Assembly: GCA_001788795.1 (NCBI GenBank)
Contig: MFXH01000009.1
Span: forward strand, 1-64,000
Length of the DNA stretch: 64,000 nt
Source: Candidatus Peregrinibacteria bacterium RIFOXYA2_FULL_41_18
GTDB taxonomy: Bacteria; Patescibacteriota; Gracilibacteria; UBA1369; UBA12470
Reading direction: 5' to 3'
Shown: positions 34,247 to 62,818 of the stretch, piece after piece
How positions within the stretch are numbered: position 1 is the first letter of the stretch
Layout of the letters: the number at the start of each line of letters is the position of its first letter
Translations under genes and position numbers: made by a program
The notes under the pieces: model-generated
Database searches by the model: none
What the model was told of the DNA's origin: nothing
The model's input: the letters and a program-made list of their open reading frames with translations, nothing else

Positions 34247-34321
34247 AGGGGCATAGTGTCAATGGTAGCACGTTGGTCTCCAAAACCAAAAGTTCGGGTT
34301 CGAACCCTGATGCCCCTGCCA
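34247..34321 (+). tRNA. tRNA-Trp (CCA)
   Basis: Acceptor AGGGGCA/TGCCCCT, anticodon loop CTCCAAA giving CCA, T-arm CGGGTTCGAACCCTG, discriminator G and encoded CCA. Only the UGG anticodon form is present, in line with TGA being a stop. The second-family hairpin begins 4 bp downstream. Confidence 0.95.
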
Positions 34322-34325
34322 CGCA

Positions 34326-34442
34326 GGTTTTTGAATTATTTTCGTATGGATTCACTTCCTGTTTTCTCGGCCGTCTAGCTACCGCTTAGACGACTTTCGA
34401 AAACATGAGCGTTGCAGATATATCCAAAACAATTCAAAAACC
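34326..34442 (+). repeat. GTTTTC/GAAAAC compound hairpin element, copy 1
   Basis: Outer inverted repeat GGTTTTTGAATT ... AATTCAAAAACC (12 bp perfect). The inner block GTTTTC...CGTCTAGC TACC GCTTAGACG...GAAAAC folds into a second hairpin with one bulge. The inner 65 bp recur at 62650-62761, but the outer arms differ there. Confidence 0.9.
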
Positions 34443-34508
34443 TTTATGTTATATGTTTGACCTAATTTTTTTGAATATGTAAAATCCCTATCGGTTTTTG
34501 AAAATTTG

Positions 34509-47848: not shown

Positions 47849-48820
47849 TTAGATGTTTTCTAAGACTTTTCTTCCGTTTGTACTCGCAATATCTGATAGT
47901 TTTTCGATATCGTAATACCTGCAAGCTTCTATAAGGAATAGTAGTTCCGTGAATATATCTCCATCTATAAAAGGGCAGAAATAGTCATATACATTATCAA
48001 CTCCGAGTGCGACGGTTACTCCCGCTTCCAACAATTCCGGTACAGGTGCGATTGAATTGTGGACGGGAGACATTTTATGTCTAGGTTGTTGATTGTCTAT
48101 CATTGCACGTGGGCAGACGATTACGTTCATGTCTGCCTTTTTCACCAATTGAGCAATCTCTTTTATATAATCATCCGGTTGTGCCGCCAATGAACAACAA
48201 TGCACTGCGTTTACGCGACCTTGTAGTCCGTGTTCTATAACTTTTTTCGCAAGCAATTCCGTGTCGCGTTCTTCAGGATCGTTATTTTGATCTATATGAA
48301 CGTCTACGGTCTTTTTATGTTTTTTTGCCATTTCAAAAATATAATCGAGGTGTTCGGATTGTTTCGGTCTGTCACGAGAGGGGAGTCCTCCAAGCACATC
48401 TACATAAGGAGCAGCTTTTTCGATCCATTCTTGAGCCGATTTATTTAGTGCTCCTTCAAGTACCTGAGAGCATATTTGTATCTCGATTTGAGACTTGTAT
48501 TTTTCTTTTATTTCAAGCGCTGCTTCTATACACATCATCCCAACGGTATTATCGACATCTATATTTGTTCTTGTCATTTTGCATCCTTGCTTGATCATGT
48601 TTTCCGCACTCAAGCACATTCTTTCGATAAGATTTTTATGAGTGTATCCTTCTTTAACTTTTTTCCATAAATCCCATTTAACCTCCATGTGTTCGAGAGT
48701 CATCTCAAGGGTTTCCGGAGTTATTACATATGCTTTGTCGAAATGCGCATGGCATGAAACGAGTCCGCCTTTTTCGGCAATTTTTTGGCGTAAAACGGAA
48801 TGTAGATCCCAAGGGTGCAT
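47849..48820 (-). CDS. Cytosine deaminase-like amidohydrolase
   Basis: 323 aa metal-dependent hydrolase barrel. Metal ligands appear as SCHAHFDKAYV near 23-30, VDVHIDQNND near 175, AVHCCSLAA near 205 and LGVDNVYDYF near 275, matching CodA-type cytosine or N-isopropylammelide deaminases. It lies 44 bp downstream of argH in the same direction, probably one transcript. The substrate (pyrimidine, pterin or other) is not certain. Confidence 0.82.
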   Translation of the reverse strand: MHPWDLHSVLRQKIAEKGGLVSCHAHFDKAYVITPETLEMTLEHMEVKWDLWKKVKEGYTHKNLIERMCLSAENMIKQGCKMTRTNIDVDNTVGMMCIEAALEIKEKYKSQIEIQICSQVLEGALNKSAQEWIEKAAPYVDVLGGLPSRDRPKQSEHLDYIFEMAKKHKKTVDVHIDQNNDPEERDTELLAKKVIEHGLQGRVNAVHCCSLAAQPDDYIKEIAQLVKKADMNVIVCPRAMIDNQQPRHKMSPVHNSIAPVPELLEAGVTVALGVDNVYDYFCPFIDGDIFTELLFLIEACRYYDIEKLSDIASTNGRKVLENI

Positions 48821-50495: not shown

Positions 50496-50506
50496 TTCAT
50501 TTTTAT

Positions 50507-51968
<1,462 letters not shown>

Positions 51969-52264
51969 GGGAGAATCGTCTCACTTCGGTGAGACCTCCT
52001 AGGTCGAAATCCTGCTTGCAGGATTGGCGGATTGGTAACAATTCGCAACCTATAGATAGGGTTTTCTCTATTACACCATAGCTGTCAGGGGGAGTCGCCA
52101 AAAGGCGGTCTCTCTTTATAGGCTCTTAGGGTTTATGCTCTAGGGGTTTTTTGCATGTAGAGTTACAGAATTGCAGAATCACAGATTGGAGTGCTTTTGC
52201 CTCTGTTTTCTGCTTTCTGTGTTTTGCTTTCTGTGCTATAATTATTAGATTTAAAACCAAAAAA
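51969..52264 (+). other. Region downstream of 16S
   Basis: Holds the hairpin GTCTCAC-TTCG-GTGAGAC (about 51979), a weaker hairpin GTCGCC-AAAA-GGCG (52095-52108) before TCTCTCTTTAT that may end transcription, a low-complexity run of ctgctttctgtg, and the mscS -10 GCTATAATTATTAGAT at 52236. No gene seen. Confidence 0.5.
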
Positions 52265-53278
52265 ATGGCGAGTAGTGTCGACTTTGCATCATCGGATACT
52301 GAAGTTCTTGATACCGGTAGCGGTGGATTTTCCGATTTAACCGTTGCGATTTTTGAAAAGTTTTTTTCTGTTATGGAGGCGGCGTTAATTTTGGTTTTTG
52401 TTTATTTTGCAATGAAATGGCTTCGAAAGTATTTTGCGAAGATTGAGTCTACGCATGAACAACAGAAGACCGCTCTCAATTTTCTAGAGAGAATTATAAA
52501 TGGATTCATACTGGTTATCGGTGTAACCCTCGCTCTTAAGAATGTCGGACTGGACGTGAGTCTTCTTGTGAGTGTTGGTGTGCTTGGTTTGAGCTATGGG
52601 CTTAAGGATGTGATTAAGAACTATGTTGCCGGAATTATTATTTTCTTCAAAGCGCCTTTCAAGATAGGGGATATCGTGAAAATCAAGAAGTTTACCGGTA
52701 AGGTTGATAGAATGGATTTTCAGTCAACCGGTATTAAGACTTTTGATAATAGGGATATTACAATTTATAATTCCGATATCATTTCCGAATCTATAGAAAA
52801 CTATTCAAGATTGCCTGTACGCAGGATGGAAATAGATGTTCGTTTTGGCTACGGTACAGATTTGGAAAAGGCTGTTATTGCTCTTGAAAATATTTTAAAA
52901 AGCGAACCTGCTATTCAGCAAAAGCCTAAGTTTTCTGTTGTTTTTAAGAAGTTTGCGCAAGATGCGATGATTGTACAGCTGAGATTCTGGGTTTCCGTGC
53001 CTTCAAATATGTTAGCAGTGAGATCTTCTGTGGCGTTTAAGATTCATCAAATGTTTGATGAGATTGTGATTTATTCTCCATATATGAAAAGCATTGAGAC
53101 TGATAAGAGTTTTGCCCAGGGAGCTGAAGAAAAATCCAAACTCAAAGATTTCTTGGCAGGACCTGTTGTTACAGGCAAAGAACAGCCGGCACTTGCCGTT
53201 GCTGTTGCCGGTGCTGAAGTTACTCCTGAGATTGCCGATTCGGATGAACCTTATTCGATTGAAGAGGATTTGAAATAG
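52265..53278 (+). CDS. mscS: Small-conductance mechanosensitive channel
   Basis: The ORF track start lies in the low-complexity leader; the ATG at 52265 (MASSVDFASSD) follows the -10 at 52237 by a normal distance. Three membrane segments (about 30-50, 75-95, 100-125), the gate helix SVGVLGLSYGLKDVIKNYVAGIIIFF, then the beta domain FKIGDIVKIKKFTGKVDRMD and an alpha-beta vestibule to about 290, plus a variable Ala/Glu-rich tail. 337 aa. It releases solutes on osmotic downshock. It is one of the genes lying between 16S and 23S. Confidence 0.94.
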   Translation: MASSVDFASSDTEVLDTGSGGFSDLTVAIFEKFFSVMEAALILVFVYFAMKWLRKYFAKIESTHEQQKTALNFLERIINGFILVIGVTLALKNVGLDVSLLVSVGVLGLSYGLKDVIKNYVAGIIIFFKAPFKIGDIVKIKKFTGKVDRMDFQSTGIKTFDNRDITIYNSDIISESIENYSRLPVRRMEIDVRFGYGTDLEKAVIALENILKSEPAIQQKPKFSVVFKKFAQDAMIVQLRFWVSVPSNMLAVRSSVAFKIHQMFDEIVIYSPYMKSIETDKSFAQGAEEKSKLKDFLAGPVVTGKEQPALAVAVAGAEVTPEIADSDEPYSIEEDLK

Positions 53279-53289
53279 AGTATTTGTGT

Positions 53290-53318
53290 TTGACTCAATG
53301 AGCGTATTTTATTAAAGT
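53290..53318 (+). promoter_or_regulatory. Promoter of the tRNA-Ile/tRNA-Ala pair
   Basis: TTGACT, 17-bp spacer, TAAAGT, 31 bp before tRNA-Ile. It shows the tRNAs need not rely on read-through from 16S. Confidence 0.65.
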
Positions 53319-53348
53319 GTCCGTTGTCTTCTTTGACAAAAATGATTT

Positions 53349-53425
53349 GGGCGAGTAGCTCAGCTGGTTAGAGCGCGTCGCTGATAACGACGAGGTCAGT
53401 GGTTCGAGTCCACTCCCGCCCACCA
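53349..53425 (+). tRNA. tRNA-Ile (GAT)
   Basis: Anticodon loop CTGATAA giving GAT, T-arm AGTGGTTCGAGTCCACT, encoded CCA. The acceptor GGGCGAG/CCCGCCC has an A-C mismatch at pair 6-67. Normally located in the 16S-23S spacer; here a separate unit in the same order. Confidence 0.95.
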
Positions 53426-53461
53426 GATGCTCAATCGCTCTGGATCATAAAAAAATACTGT

Positions 53462-53538
53462 GGGGCATTAGCTTAGTTGGCTAGAGCGCCGCGTTTGCAC
53501 CGCGGAGGTCGAGGGTTCGACTCCCTCATGCTCCACCA
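53462..53538 (+). tRNA. tRNA-Ala (TGC)
   Basis: Acceptor GGGGCAT/ATGCTCC with G3-U70, the Ala identity pair. Anticodon loop TTTGCAC giving TGC, encoded CCA. Repeat copy E starts at the next base. Confidence 0.96.
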
Positions 53539-53595
53539 CAGTAGTCGCTTCATAAGCGACCTTTATTATTAAGTTGTTTTGCGGATGCAAAACTC
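53539..53595 (-). repeat. GTTTTGC hairpin repeat, copy E
   Basis: From tRNA-Ala: GTCGCTTCATAAGCGAC hairpin, AT-rich linker, then TTTTGCGGATGCAAAA. It fills the gap between the tRNA CCA and the stop codon of the convergent rluA-like gene. Confidence 0.8.
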
Positions 53596-54225
53596 CTATT
53601 TAACCCATTCAATTTCTCTTCCGATTTCTTTTCTTGTATCAATCTCCACCCAGTCCGTTTCTATTCCTATGCAGCATAAGTGCATGGAGTCTGAATATTT
53701 GCCTTTATATAATTCGTCTCCGACTATTGGACATCCTGCTGAAGCCAAATGAACTCTTATTTGATGTCTGGCGCCTTGTTGTATTTTGCATTCGAGAAGT
53801 GTTTCGCTGATTTTTTTTATATAAGTTTTTGCATTAATAGGTTTACCTTTGTAATCGATTTTTTTATCAACAGTTAATACTGCCATTCTTTTTGAAGATT
53901 TGTGTACGATAGGGAAGTTAATTTCATTGGTTTCAGGTGCGGTATCTGAAATTTCTGCAAGATAAATTTTCTTGAGATTTTTATCCTGAATGAATTTATC
54001 GTGAGCTTCTTTATTTTTTGCAAATAAAACTAGTCCGCAGGTTTCGTTATCCAATCTGTAAAGCAGGCCTCCTTCTTCTTCTTTGAATCCCGAGAAAGTG
54101 AATAGTTCCGGATGATATTTTTTAACTTCTTCTACGAAACATCCGGATTTTGCTCCGTAAGTTGTCGGTGTTCCGGCAGGTTTAAAGAATCCAATGTAGT
54201 TTTTGTCTTCAAAAAGTATTTCCAT
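53596..54225 (-). CDS. RluA-family pseudouridine synthase
   Basis: 209 aa. Isomerises uridine in rRNA or tRNA. YRLDNETCGLVLFAKN near 55-70 holds the catalytic Asp (usual motif HRLDxxTSG), AKTYIKKISETLLECKIQQGARHQIRVHLAS near 125-160 is the RluA core, and GDELYKGK follows. No S4 domain, so close to the small RluA/TruC/YqcB types. Lies on the opposite strand between tRNA-Ala and 23S. Confidence 0.92.
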   Translation of the reverse strand: MEILFEDKNYIGFFKPAGTPTTYGAKSGCFVEEVKKYHPELFTFSGFKEEEGGLLYRLDNETCGLVLFAKNKEAHDKFIQDKNLKKIYLAEISDTAPETNEINFPIVHKSSKRMAVLTVDKKIDYKGKPINAKTYIKKISETLLECKIQQGARHQIRVHLASAGCPIVGDELYKGKYSDSMHLCCIGIETDWVEIDTRKEIGREIEWVK

Positions 54226-54309
54226 GACCTGATTGTATATTGCTCAAGGCTTTATTTCCATCTCGTTTTCTGGTATAATTAAACGATTATACATTTTGTC
54301 AATCCTGTT

Positions 54310-55497
54310 GTGAATGAGATAGTAAAATACAAATCGCCAAAACTCTCTACTGGAGGAAGAATGTTCAGTTACATGATGTTCTTCTACTGTTTGGCTGTGG
54401 CGTTTGTGGCTCCGATGTTTCCGGATTATTTGGAGCGAGTTACTGGTTCGGCGATGTATGTTGGTATTTTTATCGCTATTTCTTCGTTTACAACTTTGCT
54501 TGCCAGTTTGTTTGTTTCTAAGATTCTTCATAAGGTTTCCAAGATTTTGCTTATGTACATAGGATTTTTGAGCATGGCTGTGATTTTTGCTCTTTATTCT
54601 TTTGTTGATTCCTTCTCTGTCGTTTTGGCGTTGCAAATAGTGAAAGGTATTGCGATTGCTGTTTTATTCGTTGTCATCCCGTTGATGGTCCGCGATTATA
54701 CTGCCAAGAAGAGTCTTGTTCATGAAGAAGGCGTATATTATTTCTTGTTAAATTTGGCCTGGGTTATAGGTCCTGTTGCAGGAGGTCTATTTGCTTTATA
54801 TGTGGATGATTTGTTGATGTTTTGGTTTGCTGTTGCGGTTTTTCTGATCGCGGTGATTTTTTTGCGTCATGAAGATATTATGGAAGTTGATACTAGAGAG
54901 AAAAAAAAGGTTAAAAAGTGTCTCCAAAGCTTGAAAGAGTATTTTAGCAGATGGCCACTTGTAAAAGCATATTTAATGGATTTCGGTCTTTTCGTTTGGT
55001 GGTCGATTACTACAATGTCTGTGCCTCTTTATATGGTTAAGAATGGAATGCCTGAAATTGTAGGAGGTGTCGCTATGTCTTTGCAGCTTGTACCTTTAAT
55101 TCTTCTCGAAAACTGGATTGGTAAAACTGCCAAAGATGGAAAGATGGGTTTATATATAGAAAGAGGTTTTCTTGTTATGGTTATGTTTATTTTCATGATG
55201 GCGTTTGTGGATAATGTTTATTTCTCTATAGCTATGCTTTTTTGTTCCAGTATAGGTGCGGCTTATATTGAGCCTATCAAAGAAACTTATCTGTTTAGAC
55301 ATATGAAAAAAGAAGAGGAAGATGATCTCTTCCCGATTTATGCAACTGCGAGACAAGTCGGTTATTTCGTAGGTCCGTTGATGGCAGGTTTTTTCATATC
55401 GTATTTCTCATATCAAGTGTTGTTTTTTGCTGCAGGATTTGTTTTACTTCCTATGGCTTTTATAGGTTATTTAATTCATAAGGAAACTTCCAAATGA
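54310..55497 (+). CDS. MFS transporter
   Basis: 395 aa, about 12 membrane segments. The GTG at 54310 (NEIVKYKSPKLSTGG) keeps an N-terminal tail. The alternative ATG at 54361 (MFSYMMFFYCLAV) begins the first helix and has GGAGG four bases upstream, a tight spacing. TGGTATAAT at 54271 is a likely extended -10. KEYFSRWPLVKAYLMDFG marks the middle loop. Ends in TGA and overlaps the next small membrane gene by 4 bp. Substrate unknown. Confidence 0.88.
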   Translation: MNEIVKYKSPKLSTGGRMFSYMMFFYCLAVAFVAPMFPDYLERVTGSAMYVGIFIAISSFTTLLASLFVSKILHKVSKILLMYIGFLSMAVIFALYSFVDSFSVVLALQIVKGIAIAVLFVVIPLMVRDYTAKKSLVHEEGVYYFLLNLAWVIGPVAGGLFALYVDDLLMFWFAVAVFLIAVIFLRHEDIMEVDTREKKKVKKCLQSLKEYFSRWPLVKAYLMDFGLFVWWSITTMSVPLYMVKNGMPEIVGGVAMSLQLVPLILLENWIGKTAKDGKMGLYIERGFLVMVMFIFMMAFVDNVYFSIAMLFCSSIGAAYIEPIKETYLFRHMKKEEEDDLFPIYATARQVGYFVGPLMAGFFISYFSYQVLFFAAGFVLLPMAFIGYLIHKETSK

Positions 55498-55730
55498 GTA
55501 GATATATTATAGGTTTTCTGGCCATGATTGGAGGATTTTTAATACTTGTTTATAGGGCGAAAGTAAAAGATTTGGTCGGCGATATTGGTTTTGCCGAGAA
55601 ATACATAGGTGTTGGTGGTACCTGGACTTTTTTGATTCTTTTGGGAATTGGATTTTTTATATTCGGTCTTATGTGGATGACCGGAACTTTGCAGTCCGGA
55701 GTTGGGGGTTTTCTAGGAGGGATTTTCTGA
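55494..55730 (+). CDS. Small two-helix membrane protein
   Basis: 78 aa, two membrane segments (about 3-21 and 43-62) with glycine-rich ends (SGVGGFLGGIF). Start overlaps the MFS stop as ATGA, so translation is coupled. Possibly an accessory subunit of the transporter; family unknown. Confidence 0.72.
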   Translation: MSRYIIGFLAMIGGFLILVYRAKVKDLVGDIGFAEKYIGVGGTWTFLILLGIGFFIFGLMWMTGTLQSGVGGFLGGIF

Positions 55731-55823
55731 AAAAGAGGCGAAGAATTGAAGAAGTGAAGAGTGTGAATTAACGAAGAGAATGATGGTTTCGTCAATTTCT
55801 TTTAAGATTTTGCAAAAATAATG

Positions 55824-55852
55824 TTGACATTATCTTGAGTGATAAATATAAT
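55824..55852 (+). promoter_or_regulatory. Consensus promoter of 23S-5S
   Basis: TTGACA, 17-bp spacer, TATAAT: both boxes perfect. Then CCTTTCGCTTT, the same start-site block as at 16S. Confidence 0.92.
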
Positions 55853-56176
55853 CCTTTCGCTTTGTTAGTTTTACATTCCAAATCCCTTCTAATATTTTTG
55901 TTTTTTTCGCACTCTCCAGTCTAGTAACTTAAAAGGTAAAGCCTTGGCGGTTGATAGGTTGAAGAGTGCGTAAAGTCGCACTCTTTTTTCTTCACAAGGT
56001 TGTGGGGGGAACGAACTGCCCATTGAAAATCAGGTGACTAGAATTATTCATATATATCAAAATTCAATGTTCAATATTAAGCATAATAAATTTTCAGAAT
56101 TAAATAATTAATTCTGATGTCTTTTTTTCAAATTTTTGTCTAGGTGATTTTTTCAAGTTACCAGACAAAAGGTGGG
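55853..56176 (+). promoter_or_regulatory. 23S leader with a terminator-like switch
   Basis: AAGAGTGCG / CGCACTCTT (55962-55985) followed by TTTTTTC forms a terminator-like hairpin. An upstream CGCACTCT (55908-55915) can pair with its 5' arm instead. A further stem near 56135-56172 (TTTTGTCT.GGTGA with TTACCAGACAAAA) may be for processing. No protein gene seen. Confidence 0.6.
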
Positions 56177-59187
<3,011 letters not shown>

Positions 59188-59304
59188 ATTTTTTACTTTC
59201 CTTTAGGCTTTAATCAGTGATAAGGGCGATTCATCGTCTTTGTCACTGGTTTAAAGCTCCTTTTGTCTGATATTTTGAAAAAATTCTAGGAAATTTGTTC
59301 TTTT

Positions 59305-59450
59305 AAAAAAAGGCACAATCTTGGTGGCTATAGAGGTTGGGGTACACCTGTTCCCATCCCGAACACAGAAGTTAAGCCAACCTTCGCCGATGGTACTGAC
59401 CAATTAAGGGTCGGGAGAGTAGGGCGTCGCCAAGATTGTGCCTTTTTTTT
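59305..59450. terminator. Extended 5S stem acting as terminator
   Basis: AAAAAAAGGCACAATCTTGG before and CCAAGATTGTGCCTTTTTTTT after the 5S form a stem of about 20 bp that continues the 5S terminal helix and ends in eight T. It terminates the rRNA unit before the convergent TraC-like gene. Confidence 0.85.
59318..59436 (+). rRNA. rrf: 5S rRNA
   Basis: TTGGTGGCTATAGAGG ... CCCGAACACAGAAGTTAAG ... GGTCGGGAGAGTAGGGCGTCGCCAA, with closing stem. About 120 nt. It lies 130 bp after 23S, so both are in one transcript. Confidence 0.95.
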
Positions 59451-60854: not shown

Positions 60855-62654
60855 ATGCTAGATAATATCCGAAATTTTTGCATAATAGCTCATATAGACC
60901 ACGGTAAGTCGACTCTTGCCGATAGGTTTCTTGAAGTAACAGGTACTATAAGCAAGCGCGAAATGAAGCATGCGCAAATGCTTGATACGATGGAGCTTGA
61001 ACAAGAGAGGGGAATTACGATTAAGCTGCAGCCTGTAAGAATGGATTGGGAATATAAAGGGCAAAAATATATTTTGAATCTTATAGATACGCCCGGACAT
61101 GTGGATTTCTCTTATGAGGTTTCTAGAAGCTTGGCGGCTTGTGAGGGTGCGATTCTTATAGTCGATGCGACTCAAGGAATTGAGGCGCAGACACTTGCGA
61201 ATTGTTATATGGCGATGGAGCACAATCTGACGATTGTTCCTGTCCTTAACAAAATAGATCTTCCTGCGGCGGATGTGCCGAAGAGAGCTAAGGAAATTGA
61301 AGATGCTCTTGGGATTCCGGCTTCTGAGATTATTTCTGTTTCAGCAAAAGAAGGAACTAATGTTGCCGACGTGTTGGCGAGAGTTGTTGAGACTGTTCCG
61401 CCTCCTACATTCGCAACCGAAGAAGAGACCAAGGCTTTGATTTTTGATTCCGTATATGACAGTTACAAAGGAGTTGTTGCGTTTGTGCGTGTTATGGATG
61501 GGAGTCTTAAGAAAGGGGATAGGGCTTTTCTACTTCATACGAGAGCTGATGTCGAAGTGCTTGAAGTGGGTTATTTTAAGCCAAAATATCAGCCCGCCGA
61601 TATCCTTAAACATGGAGAGGTTGGATATGTCGTTACGGGTCTGAAAACCATTTCCGAAGTTAGGGTTGGTGATACGATTTGGAAATCCGAAACGGTTCCG
61701 CTAGAGAAGGCTCAACCTTTGGAAGGTTATAAAAAAGTTAAACCTTTTGTTTTTGCCAGTATCTTCTGTATTGCCGGTGATGATTATCCTTTGTTGCGTG
61801 ATGCGCTTGAGAAATTAAGCTTGAACGATTCTTCGCTGTCTTATGAACCTGAAAGGTCAGTTGCGCTCGGACATGGGTTCCGATGTGGTTTCTTGGGTCT
61901 TCTTCATCTTGATATTGTTCAAGAAAGGCTTGAGAGAGAGTATGGATTGAATTTGGTTATTACAGCTCCGTCTGTTTCTTATAAAGTTGTTAGGTCTTCA
62001 GGTGAGGAAGTTGATGTGCATAGCCCTTATGATATGCCTGATAGGTCTTATGTGTTAGCTGTTAAGGAACCATGGGTTAAGTTGGAACTTCTTACGCCTA
62101 AGGAATATACGGGTGCGATTATGAAGCTTGTGCAGGATAGACGAGGAATTAATAAAAGTATTAATTACTTGAATGAATCACGTGTGTTGCTCGACTTCGA
62201 AGCGCCTTTGTCGTCTATTGTTGTTGATTTCTATGATAAATTAAAAAGTATTTCTTCCGGATATGCATCTATGAATTATGAATTCATTGATTTCCGAGAA
62301 GGTGATCTTGTGAAAGTTGATATTCTTGTTTCCGGCGATCCTGTTCCGCCATTGGCGATGATCGTGCATAAGAGCGAATCTTATGCCGCCGGTTGCAAGG
62401 TTACTAAATTGCTTAAGGATTTGATTCCAAGAGCGAATTTTCTCATAACTCTTCAAGCTGCAATAGGTGGGAAAATTATTGCTCGCGAGGATATTTCGGC
62501 TTATAGAAAAGATGTTACCGGTTATTTGTATGGAGGTGATAGAACTCGAAAAGATAAACTTCTTAAGAAGCAAAAAGAGGGGAAAAAGAGGATGAAAATG
62601 GTAGGGAAGGTGAATGTGCCGCAGGAGGCGTTTATGGCGGTGTTGAAGAGATAA
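60855..62654 (+). CDS. lepA: Elongation factor 4 (LepA)
   Basis: Ribosome-bound GTPase. G1 AHIDHGKSTL near 12-21, G3 DTPGHVDFSYEV near 78, G4 NKID near 132, then the EF4 C-terminal part ending GGDRTRKDKLLKKQKEGKKRMK. 599 aa, the full family length. Upstream it has TTGACT and TATAAC but with a poor spacing of 20. The stop codon lies within the left arm of the hairpin element copy 2. Confidence 0.97.
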   Translation: MLDNIRNFCIIAHIDHGKSTLADRFLEVTGTISKREMKHAQMLDTMELEQERGITIKLQPVRMDWEYKGQKYILNLIDTPGHVDFSYEVSRSLAACEGAILIVDATQGIEAQTLANCYMAMEHNLTIVPVLNKIDLPAADVPKRAKEIEDALGIPASEIISVSAKEGTNVADVLARVVETVPPPTFATEEETKALIFDSVYDSYKGVVAFVRVMDGSLKKGDRAFLLHTRADVEVLEVGYFKPKYQPADILKHGEVGYVVTGLKTISEVRVGDTIWKSETVPLEKAQPLEGYKKVKPFVFASIFCIAGDDYPLLRDALEKLSLNDSSLSYEPERSVALGHGFRCGFLGLLHLDIVQERLEREYGLNLVITAPSVSYKVVRSSGEEVDVHSPYDMPDRSYVLAVKEPWVKLELLTPKEYTGAIMKLVQDRRGINKSINYLNESRVLLDFEAPLSSIVVDFYDKLKSISSGYASMNYEFIDFREGDLVKVDILVSGDPVPPLAMIVHKSESYAAGCKVTKLLKDLIPRANFLITLQAAIGGKIIAREDISAYRKDVTGYLYGGDRTRKDKLLKKQKEGKKRMKMVGKVNVPQEAFMAVLKR

Positions 62655-62761
62655 TAATATCCTTGTTATGGCTTCGCTTCCCGTTTTCTCACCCGTCCAG
62701 CTACCGCTTGGACGACTTTCGAAAACAGGAGCGCTGCAGATATAACAAGAATATTATTATC
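62650..62761 (+). repeat. GTTTTC/GAAAAC compound hairpin element, copy 2
   Basis: Outer arms GATAATAATAT ... ATATTATTATC (11 bp perfect, extended by CTTGTTAT pairing). The inner block GTTTTC...CGTCCAGC TACC GCTTGGACG...GAAAAC matches copy 1 except that the T-A pair in the stem is a C-G pair here, a compensatory change. The left arm covers the lepA stop. Confidence 0.9.
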
Positions 62762-62818
62762 TCTGCTTATGTTCTGCTCTTTGTAATTCTGTAACTCTAA
62801 TGTTAAACTTTCAATCGC

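Follow-up and report, generated by a model that had tools for sequence, protein, structure and literature searches.

To our knowledge, the movement of palindromic elements of the RPE and REP kind without a transposase is an open question. Integron attC sites are imperfect single-strand hairpins that lie behind genes in sense, with a conserved structure and bulged bases on one arm; their outer ends (R boxes) are conserved and their inside is variable. RPE are small (~100-150 bp) palindromic mobile DNAs that occur as several families per genome, insert in frame into essential genes, where they encode a tolerated peptide, and have no known transposase of their own (PMC10969869; PMC3733652). REPs are likewise palindromic, adjoin gene 3' ends and are sometimes intragenic; their units of 20-40 bp have conserved stems and are tagged with GTAG or CGTC, and CGTC REPs lack a dedicated transposase (PMC3733652). 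Palindromes of two further kinds are relevant here: the perfect inverted repeats in coding sequences of Nematomorpha mitochondrial DNA, in which one arm is believed to have templated the formation or upkeep of the other (PMC6649704), and the pre-existing inverted repeats deleted by IS1272, a 1.9 kb DDE transposon (PMC5678879). Here, we describe a real, mobile and structurally selected family of DNA hairpins whose distinguishing feature is that its outer arms are made from the host flank. A full-text literature search found no description of the element in Patescibacteria, and a literature search that did not reach the original RPE description found none of target-derived arms.

Two copies lie in the window, a stretch of 64,000 nt from Candidatus Peregrinibacteria bacterium RIFOXYA2_FULL_41_18 (Table 1). 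Their inner parts share 88% identity across 76 nt, in keeping with an earlier sequence-only reading that had recognized two related copies, and the compensatory change which that reading had pointed out is confirmed as T34376-A34388 in copy 1 versus C62698-G62710 in copy 2. The core of copy 1 consists of inner stems, a conserved internal loop (GGATTCACTT / GCGTTGCAGAT) and a terminal hairpin. The outer arms had been described as long perfect inverted repeats starting beside tRNA-Trp and on the lepA stop. Their positions agree with this, as the left arm of copy 1 begins 4 nt past the tRNA-Trp end (34325 versus 34321) and that of copy 2 starts within the last Lys codon of lepA and spans the stop codon TAA (62652-62654); the arms are nearly perfect rather than perfect, however, because each copy has one mismatch (17/18 paired with a single A·C in copy 1; 22/23 paired with a single C·A in copy 2). 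Folding z-scores against dinucleotide shuffles were -5.1 (copy 1) and -8.9 (copy 2), and the expectation of the core motif in shuffled windows was 0.00, which excluded a chance origin of both hairpins. No direct repeats of at least 12 nt were found around either copy.

Table 1. Features of the two hairpin copies in the window and of the neighboring tRNA gene.
Feature	Position	Strand	Basis
tRNA-Trp gene; 3' end abuts copy 1	34247..34321	+	ARAGORN
Copy 1, left outer arm (host flank beside tRNA-Trp)	34325..34342	+	Repeat search, 17/18 complementary
Copy 1, conserved core	34345..34420	+	Whole-genome similarity, fold, covariation
Copy 1, right outer arm (inverted copy of the left arm)	34426..34443	+	Repeat search
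Copy 2, left outer arm (over lepA last codons and stop)	62647..62669	+	Repeat search, lepA orthologue comparison
Copy 2, conserved core	62667..62741	+	Similarity, fold, covariation
Copy 2, right outer arm (inverted copy of the lepA 3' end)	62742..62764	+	Repeat search

Only one other comparable spaced inverted repeat was present in the whole 64 kb, a perfect 20-bp repeat (59305-59324 / 59430-59449) flanking the 5S rRNA, as expected for a processing stem. Protein genes lie between the rRNA genes of the window (50504-59435): between 16S (end 51965) and 23S (start 56187) lie tRNA-Ile, tRNA-Ala and ORFs of 375, 209 (antisense) and 395 aa, which by eye resemble a mechanosensitive channel, an RluA-type pseudouridine synthase and an MFS transporter.

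Covariance-model searches uncovered many further copies, both in the window's genome (G000) and in two other genera of its family (G001 and G002, Peregrinibacteria). A model built from five copies of the window's genome (R1) gave 8 significant matches in that genome and 10 and 15 in the other two genera, and no copies in 56 further genomes of the order. With a second model (R2), 9, 16 and 24 matches were obtained in G000, G001 and G002, respectively, and the window's genome holds about 10 copies in total. Plain blastn found no copies in relatives, where the covariance model alone detected them. According to an exact-pattern scan of named genomes, Candidatus Peregrinibacteria GWF2_43_17 and CG2_30_44_17 carry the element; a pattern scan of viral contigs returned 0 matches. 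When R2 was applied to a sample of 379 Patescibacteria, two matching genomes were identified in another family (f29), in which a pattern for this divergent subfamily recovered 22 copies in 13/121 genomes and the reversed pattern 0. A degenerate, longer relative of the element was also observed behind a tRNA in the window's genome (L008 1380-1530; C12 near 48,551-48,666), with both conserved core ends present, a different interior and unpaired arms.

The whole element measures about 95 bp, and its core (about 60-75 bp) comprises two or three short stems, a variable tip and conserved internal loops (GGCNTCRYTT / RYTGCNGAT, often also CTCG/CTCG). A pair inside the conserved loop occurs as T-A, A-T or C-G, giving three core subfamilies (GGCTTC/GCAGAT, GGCATC/GCTGAT and GTCCTC/GCGGAA). 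Covariation among relatives is massive: across 33 distinct copies, both-side changes were found in 184 cells versus 48.7 (sd 5.3) in shuffles, and the covariation score was 0.657 versus 0.190 for shuffles and at most 0.124 for slid controls. In the same alignment 92% of cells were paired, a figure inflated by fitting to an earlier version of the structure, although not to the extent of the margin over shuffled and slid controls. The helix structure of the element is under selection, as the sequence-only reading had proposed from a single pair. Neither outcome that would have counted against that reading, a lack of further copies or of covariation in relatives, was obtained. Folded as DNA, both strands form the structure, the minus strand slightly better; a minus-strand bias read from C·A mismatches was a first impression that did not hold. 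In three copies (L043, L053 and L057), the terminal loop itself contains an additional GC-rich hairpin (CCTGCCTGCCGGTAGGCGGG type, ~20 nt).

The arms behave differently from the core. Two cores can be up to 99% identical (C18 versus C34 in G001) and yet have left arms that agree at 61% of positions; among copies with core identities of 85% or more, left-arm identity was 61% versus 55% for shuffled arms. Near-identical cores with unrelated arms imply that the core is the part that spreads and that the arms are tied to the individual site, which bears out the mobile element that had been suggested for the two copies. Each arm pairs closely with its partner nonetheless: in 37 copies with scorable arms, 674 Watson-Crick pairs, 7 G·T, 11 A·C, 22 other combinations and 6 gaps were counted after extension with neutral scoring, free G·T tolerance having over-extended the arms into genes. 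Three copies from one genome (L095, L102 and L104; G513) share similar extended arms (TAACAACCAATCACCCA / TGGGTAATTGGTTGTTA) unlike those of all other copies, and may reflect a repeat unit of greater length or copies that landed in a dispersed repeat.

The origin of the arms was assessed by comparing filled and empty sites between relatives rather than closely related strains. Across 19 genomes the end of lepA is under protein constraint, its last codons being conserved in relatives without the element, and empty lepA ends of order-mates contain no comparable inverted repeat. In LeuRS of f29, the element lies in frame in a turn bounded by GAEIEF and the conserved TRPDT motif; the conserved stretch that encodes GAEIEF serves as its left arm, its right arm is the inverted copy, and in empty genes both the inverted copy and the hairpin are absent. 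The span from NWIG to the FG of TRPDTxFG is 34 aa in empty relatives versus 57 aa in the filled gene, a net gain of 69 nt that is smaller than core plus copied arm, and therefore about 18-20 nt of target were lost there. In TopA of two f29 species of one genus, the arm is what we take to be the conserved host side (VFEA.GEVV.FDGF), and the cores are oppositely oriented (L096 versus L103). In LeuRS, TopA and lepA alike, conserved host sequence makes up one arm and recurs in inverted form as the other. Formation of the outer arms by inverted copying of ~18 nt of host flank is thus well supported, and the earlier view that pairing is kept while arm sequence is free is supported with one qualification: the arms differ freely from site to site but are not arbitrary at any of them.

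The same empty sites bear on two other accounts of the arms. If the core entered the loops of pre-existing target stem-loops in the IS1272 manner, the arms would be old and empty sites should retain them, yet the empty lepA and LeuRS sites have no inverted repeat. Stem-loops are common at gene 3' ends, where the element inserts, and inverted-repeat targeting is known for IS1272 (PMC5678879); the arms, however, span stop codons and conserved codons, a canonical terminator sits separately downstream of the C7 copy, and IS1272 removes its target repeat, the opposite outcome (PMC5678879). We regard this explanation as extremely improbable and rejected IS1272-like inverted-repeat targeting as an identity for the element. 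Alternatively, a REP- or MITE-type element could be moved by a transposase acting in trans (e.g., Y1/RAYT), with arm pairing kept later by quasi-palindrome correction through template switching, a known proposal for coding palindromes (PMC6649704). Such correction needs a starting palindrome, which the empty sites do not have. Fragments of Y1_Tnp (PF01797) are present in G001, but the domain is missing from G000 and G002, and the outer ends show no conserved terminal repeats, making this alternative very unlikely.

Neither a standard MITE nor a described REP class fitted as an identity. Conserved terminal inverted repeats of the MITE kind are missing, given the 61% versus 55% arm identity, and for GTAG-type REPs the RAYT/Y1 transposase is not encoded in G000 and G002. 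Compared with GTAG and CGTC REPs, the outer ends of the element are unrelated between copies, and CGTC occurs only inside the tip of the subgroup of copies 1-3.

Insertion sites are strongly patterned. In 35/35 scorable Peregrinibacteria copies, the outer edge of the left arm falls close to where a gene on the same strand ends (-14 to +7 nt), the arm usually spanning the stop codon and last codons of protein genes and beginning 1-7 nt past CCA of tRNA genes. This strict sense orientation, less than 15 nt from the gene end, is the best argument for a transcript role or transcription-coupled targeting. Together with the very stable folds, it favors reading the element as a selected 3'-end RNA structure (an mRNA or tRNA stabiliser, or a processing or termination hairpin) that is inherited vertically and whose arms covary for transcript pairing. 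Several sites that genera have in common, with arms that are perfect yet different, point in the same direction. The tRNA-Trp 3' end is occupied in 3/3 genera, with core subfamily and arms differing each time; at lepA, G000 and G001 have the element and G002 retains its left half as a remnant, and three more gene types are occupied in two genera each. For 10 to 24 copies and an estimated 1,200 or so genes, such sharing exceeds chance.

Other features nevertheless speak for renewed insertion rather than vertical descent. At several gene ends elements are stacked, a perfect-armed one adjoining the gene and older, broken ones lying behind it, and in two cases (L038 and L080) the older remnant still terminates in an inverted copy of that gene end of its own. 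Insertion has been repeated independently at the same gene ends, and a vertically inherited RNA structure accounts poorly for these stacked remnants, for the change of core subfamily at one site and for near-identical cores at unrelated sites of one genome. At a group of genes in f29, copies are moreover often in frame within genes in either orientation (LeuRS, AlaRS, CysRS, TopA, FtsJ, RNase HII/UPF0102 and tRNA U5 methyltransferase), and those in LeuRS, AlaRS, CysRS, TopA and methyltransferase genes again weigh against a 3'-end RNA. In the window's own family, copies lay behind genes, and in-gene insertion was not seen. Finally, G·U pairs (7) are not enriched over A·C (11) in the arms and therefore lend no support to plus-strand RNA selection. 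An RNA structure of this kind thus appears unlikely, and the regulatory RNA that the sequence-only reading had offered beside a mobile element was not supported. Two specific identities were rejected as well: a known RNA family, as Rfam 15 gave only chance matches at gathering and relaxed thresholds, and an intrinsic (Rho-independent) terminator, as the arms are AT-rich and T5 directly followed the right arm in 2/44 copies examined.

Several sites hold additional features. In two f29 genomes (L107 and L109), different palindromic elements sit in the LeuRS turn used by the hairpin, one starting GTCATTGCGA (CGTC-REP-like) and one GTCATTCCGAACTTG, which indicates that this turn is a general landing site. 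LeuRS of genus g72 (L090:714-3059) has a NUDIX domain (PF00293) embedded at residues 423-544. In G002, an element behind tRNA-Leu is preceded, at a distance of ~1 kb upstream, by a group I intron (Rfam RF00028; L035 2757-2972, minus strand).

Taken together, we consider it probable that these hairpins are a non-autonomous mobile DNA family of Patescibacteria, analogous to RPE, whose arms are made at insertion by fold-back copying. Its anatomy can be written X - E - X', where E is the core, X ~18 nt of host DNA at the insertion point and X' the inverted copy of X. E, as a folded single strand, would join a DNA 3' end next to X; the 3' end of E would then fold back and be extended on X for ~18 nt, generating X', and repair would join the end downstream, with a loss of ~18-20 nt of target at the one site where this was measured. 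Host replication or repair machinery may serve as the enzyme. A reverse transcriptase or Y1 mobiliser was rejected since PF00078 and PF01797 do not track with carriers, and a genome-encoded one is not required because neither RVT_1 nor Y1_Tnp was detected in the 99%-complete G000. A direct copy (~37 nt) of the inner arm and left half lies downstream of one element (L046; G001:C34) and ends at the hairpin tip, possibly an abortive copy.

Some observations fit fold-back copying less readily. The orientation of f29 cores relative to the ancestral arm varies, as in the two TopA genes, which stands against the model, and the sense orientation of the Peregrinibacteria copies is unexplained by fold-back alone and could mean a transcript function. 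At shared sites, where arms are complementary yet differ between genera, arm-to-arm conversion or selection could also yield this pattern. The broader proposal, an undescribed mode of transposition in which a small hairpin with no dedicated enzyme in its host lands behind genes and makes its missing arm by fold-back synthesis on the flank, is offered tentatively, at slightly less than even odds. If true, each insertion would leave an inverted rather than a direct target duplication of ~18 nt, insertion sites would be re-invadable by newer copies at the same gene end, and the same signature could explain the spread of RPE-like elements. As a molecular footprint, the inverted flank copy at each insertion opens fold-back-primed insertion to testing, for which at least 37 natural insertions with scored arms are available.

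Each of the known systems shares part of this picture. Like attC sites, the element is an imperfect hairpin of conserved structure behind genes in sense, but it is variable at its outer ends and conserved inside. Like IS1272, it is a mobile element associated with host inverted repeats, some of them near gene ends; here, however, the repeat is newly formed and a transposase is lacking. The copying of arm from arm recalls the coding palindromes of Nematomorpha and template switching, with the difference that a defined element sits at the turn point, whereas no conserved mobile core has been described for those palindromes. As with REPs and REPINs, the element is palindromic, adjoins gene 3' ends and is sometimes intragenic, but its core of about 60-75 bp has no tag, it occurs in 9-24 copies, and its arms are host-derived. 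The element appears to work most like RPE, an analogy drawn from shared features: both are small, dispersed palindromic repeats with strong folds (here ~95 bp and about 10-24 copies per genome) and no known enzyme, and in-frame insertion within protein genes was seen in f29 only. In contrast to RPE, the scored copies of one family all lie behind genes in sense rather than inside them, and the outer arms reproduce the target in inverted form. The family thus adds in-frame hairpin insertions in essential Patescibacteria genes and a striking preference for gene 3' ends to what is known of such repeats, and its target-copied arms provide a clue to how ownerless hairpin elements spread.
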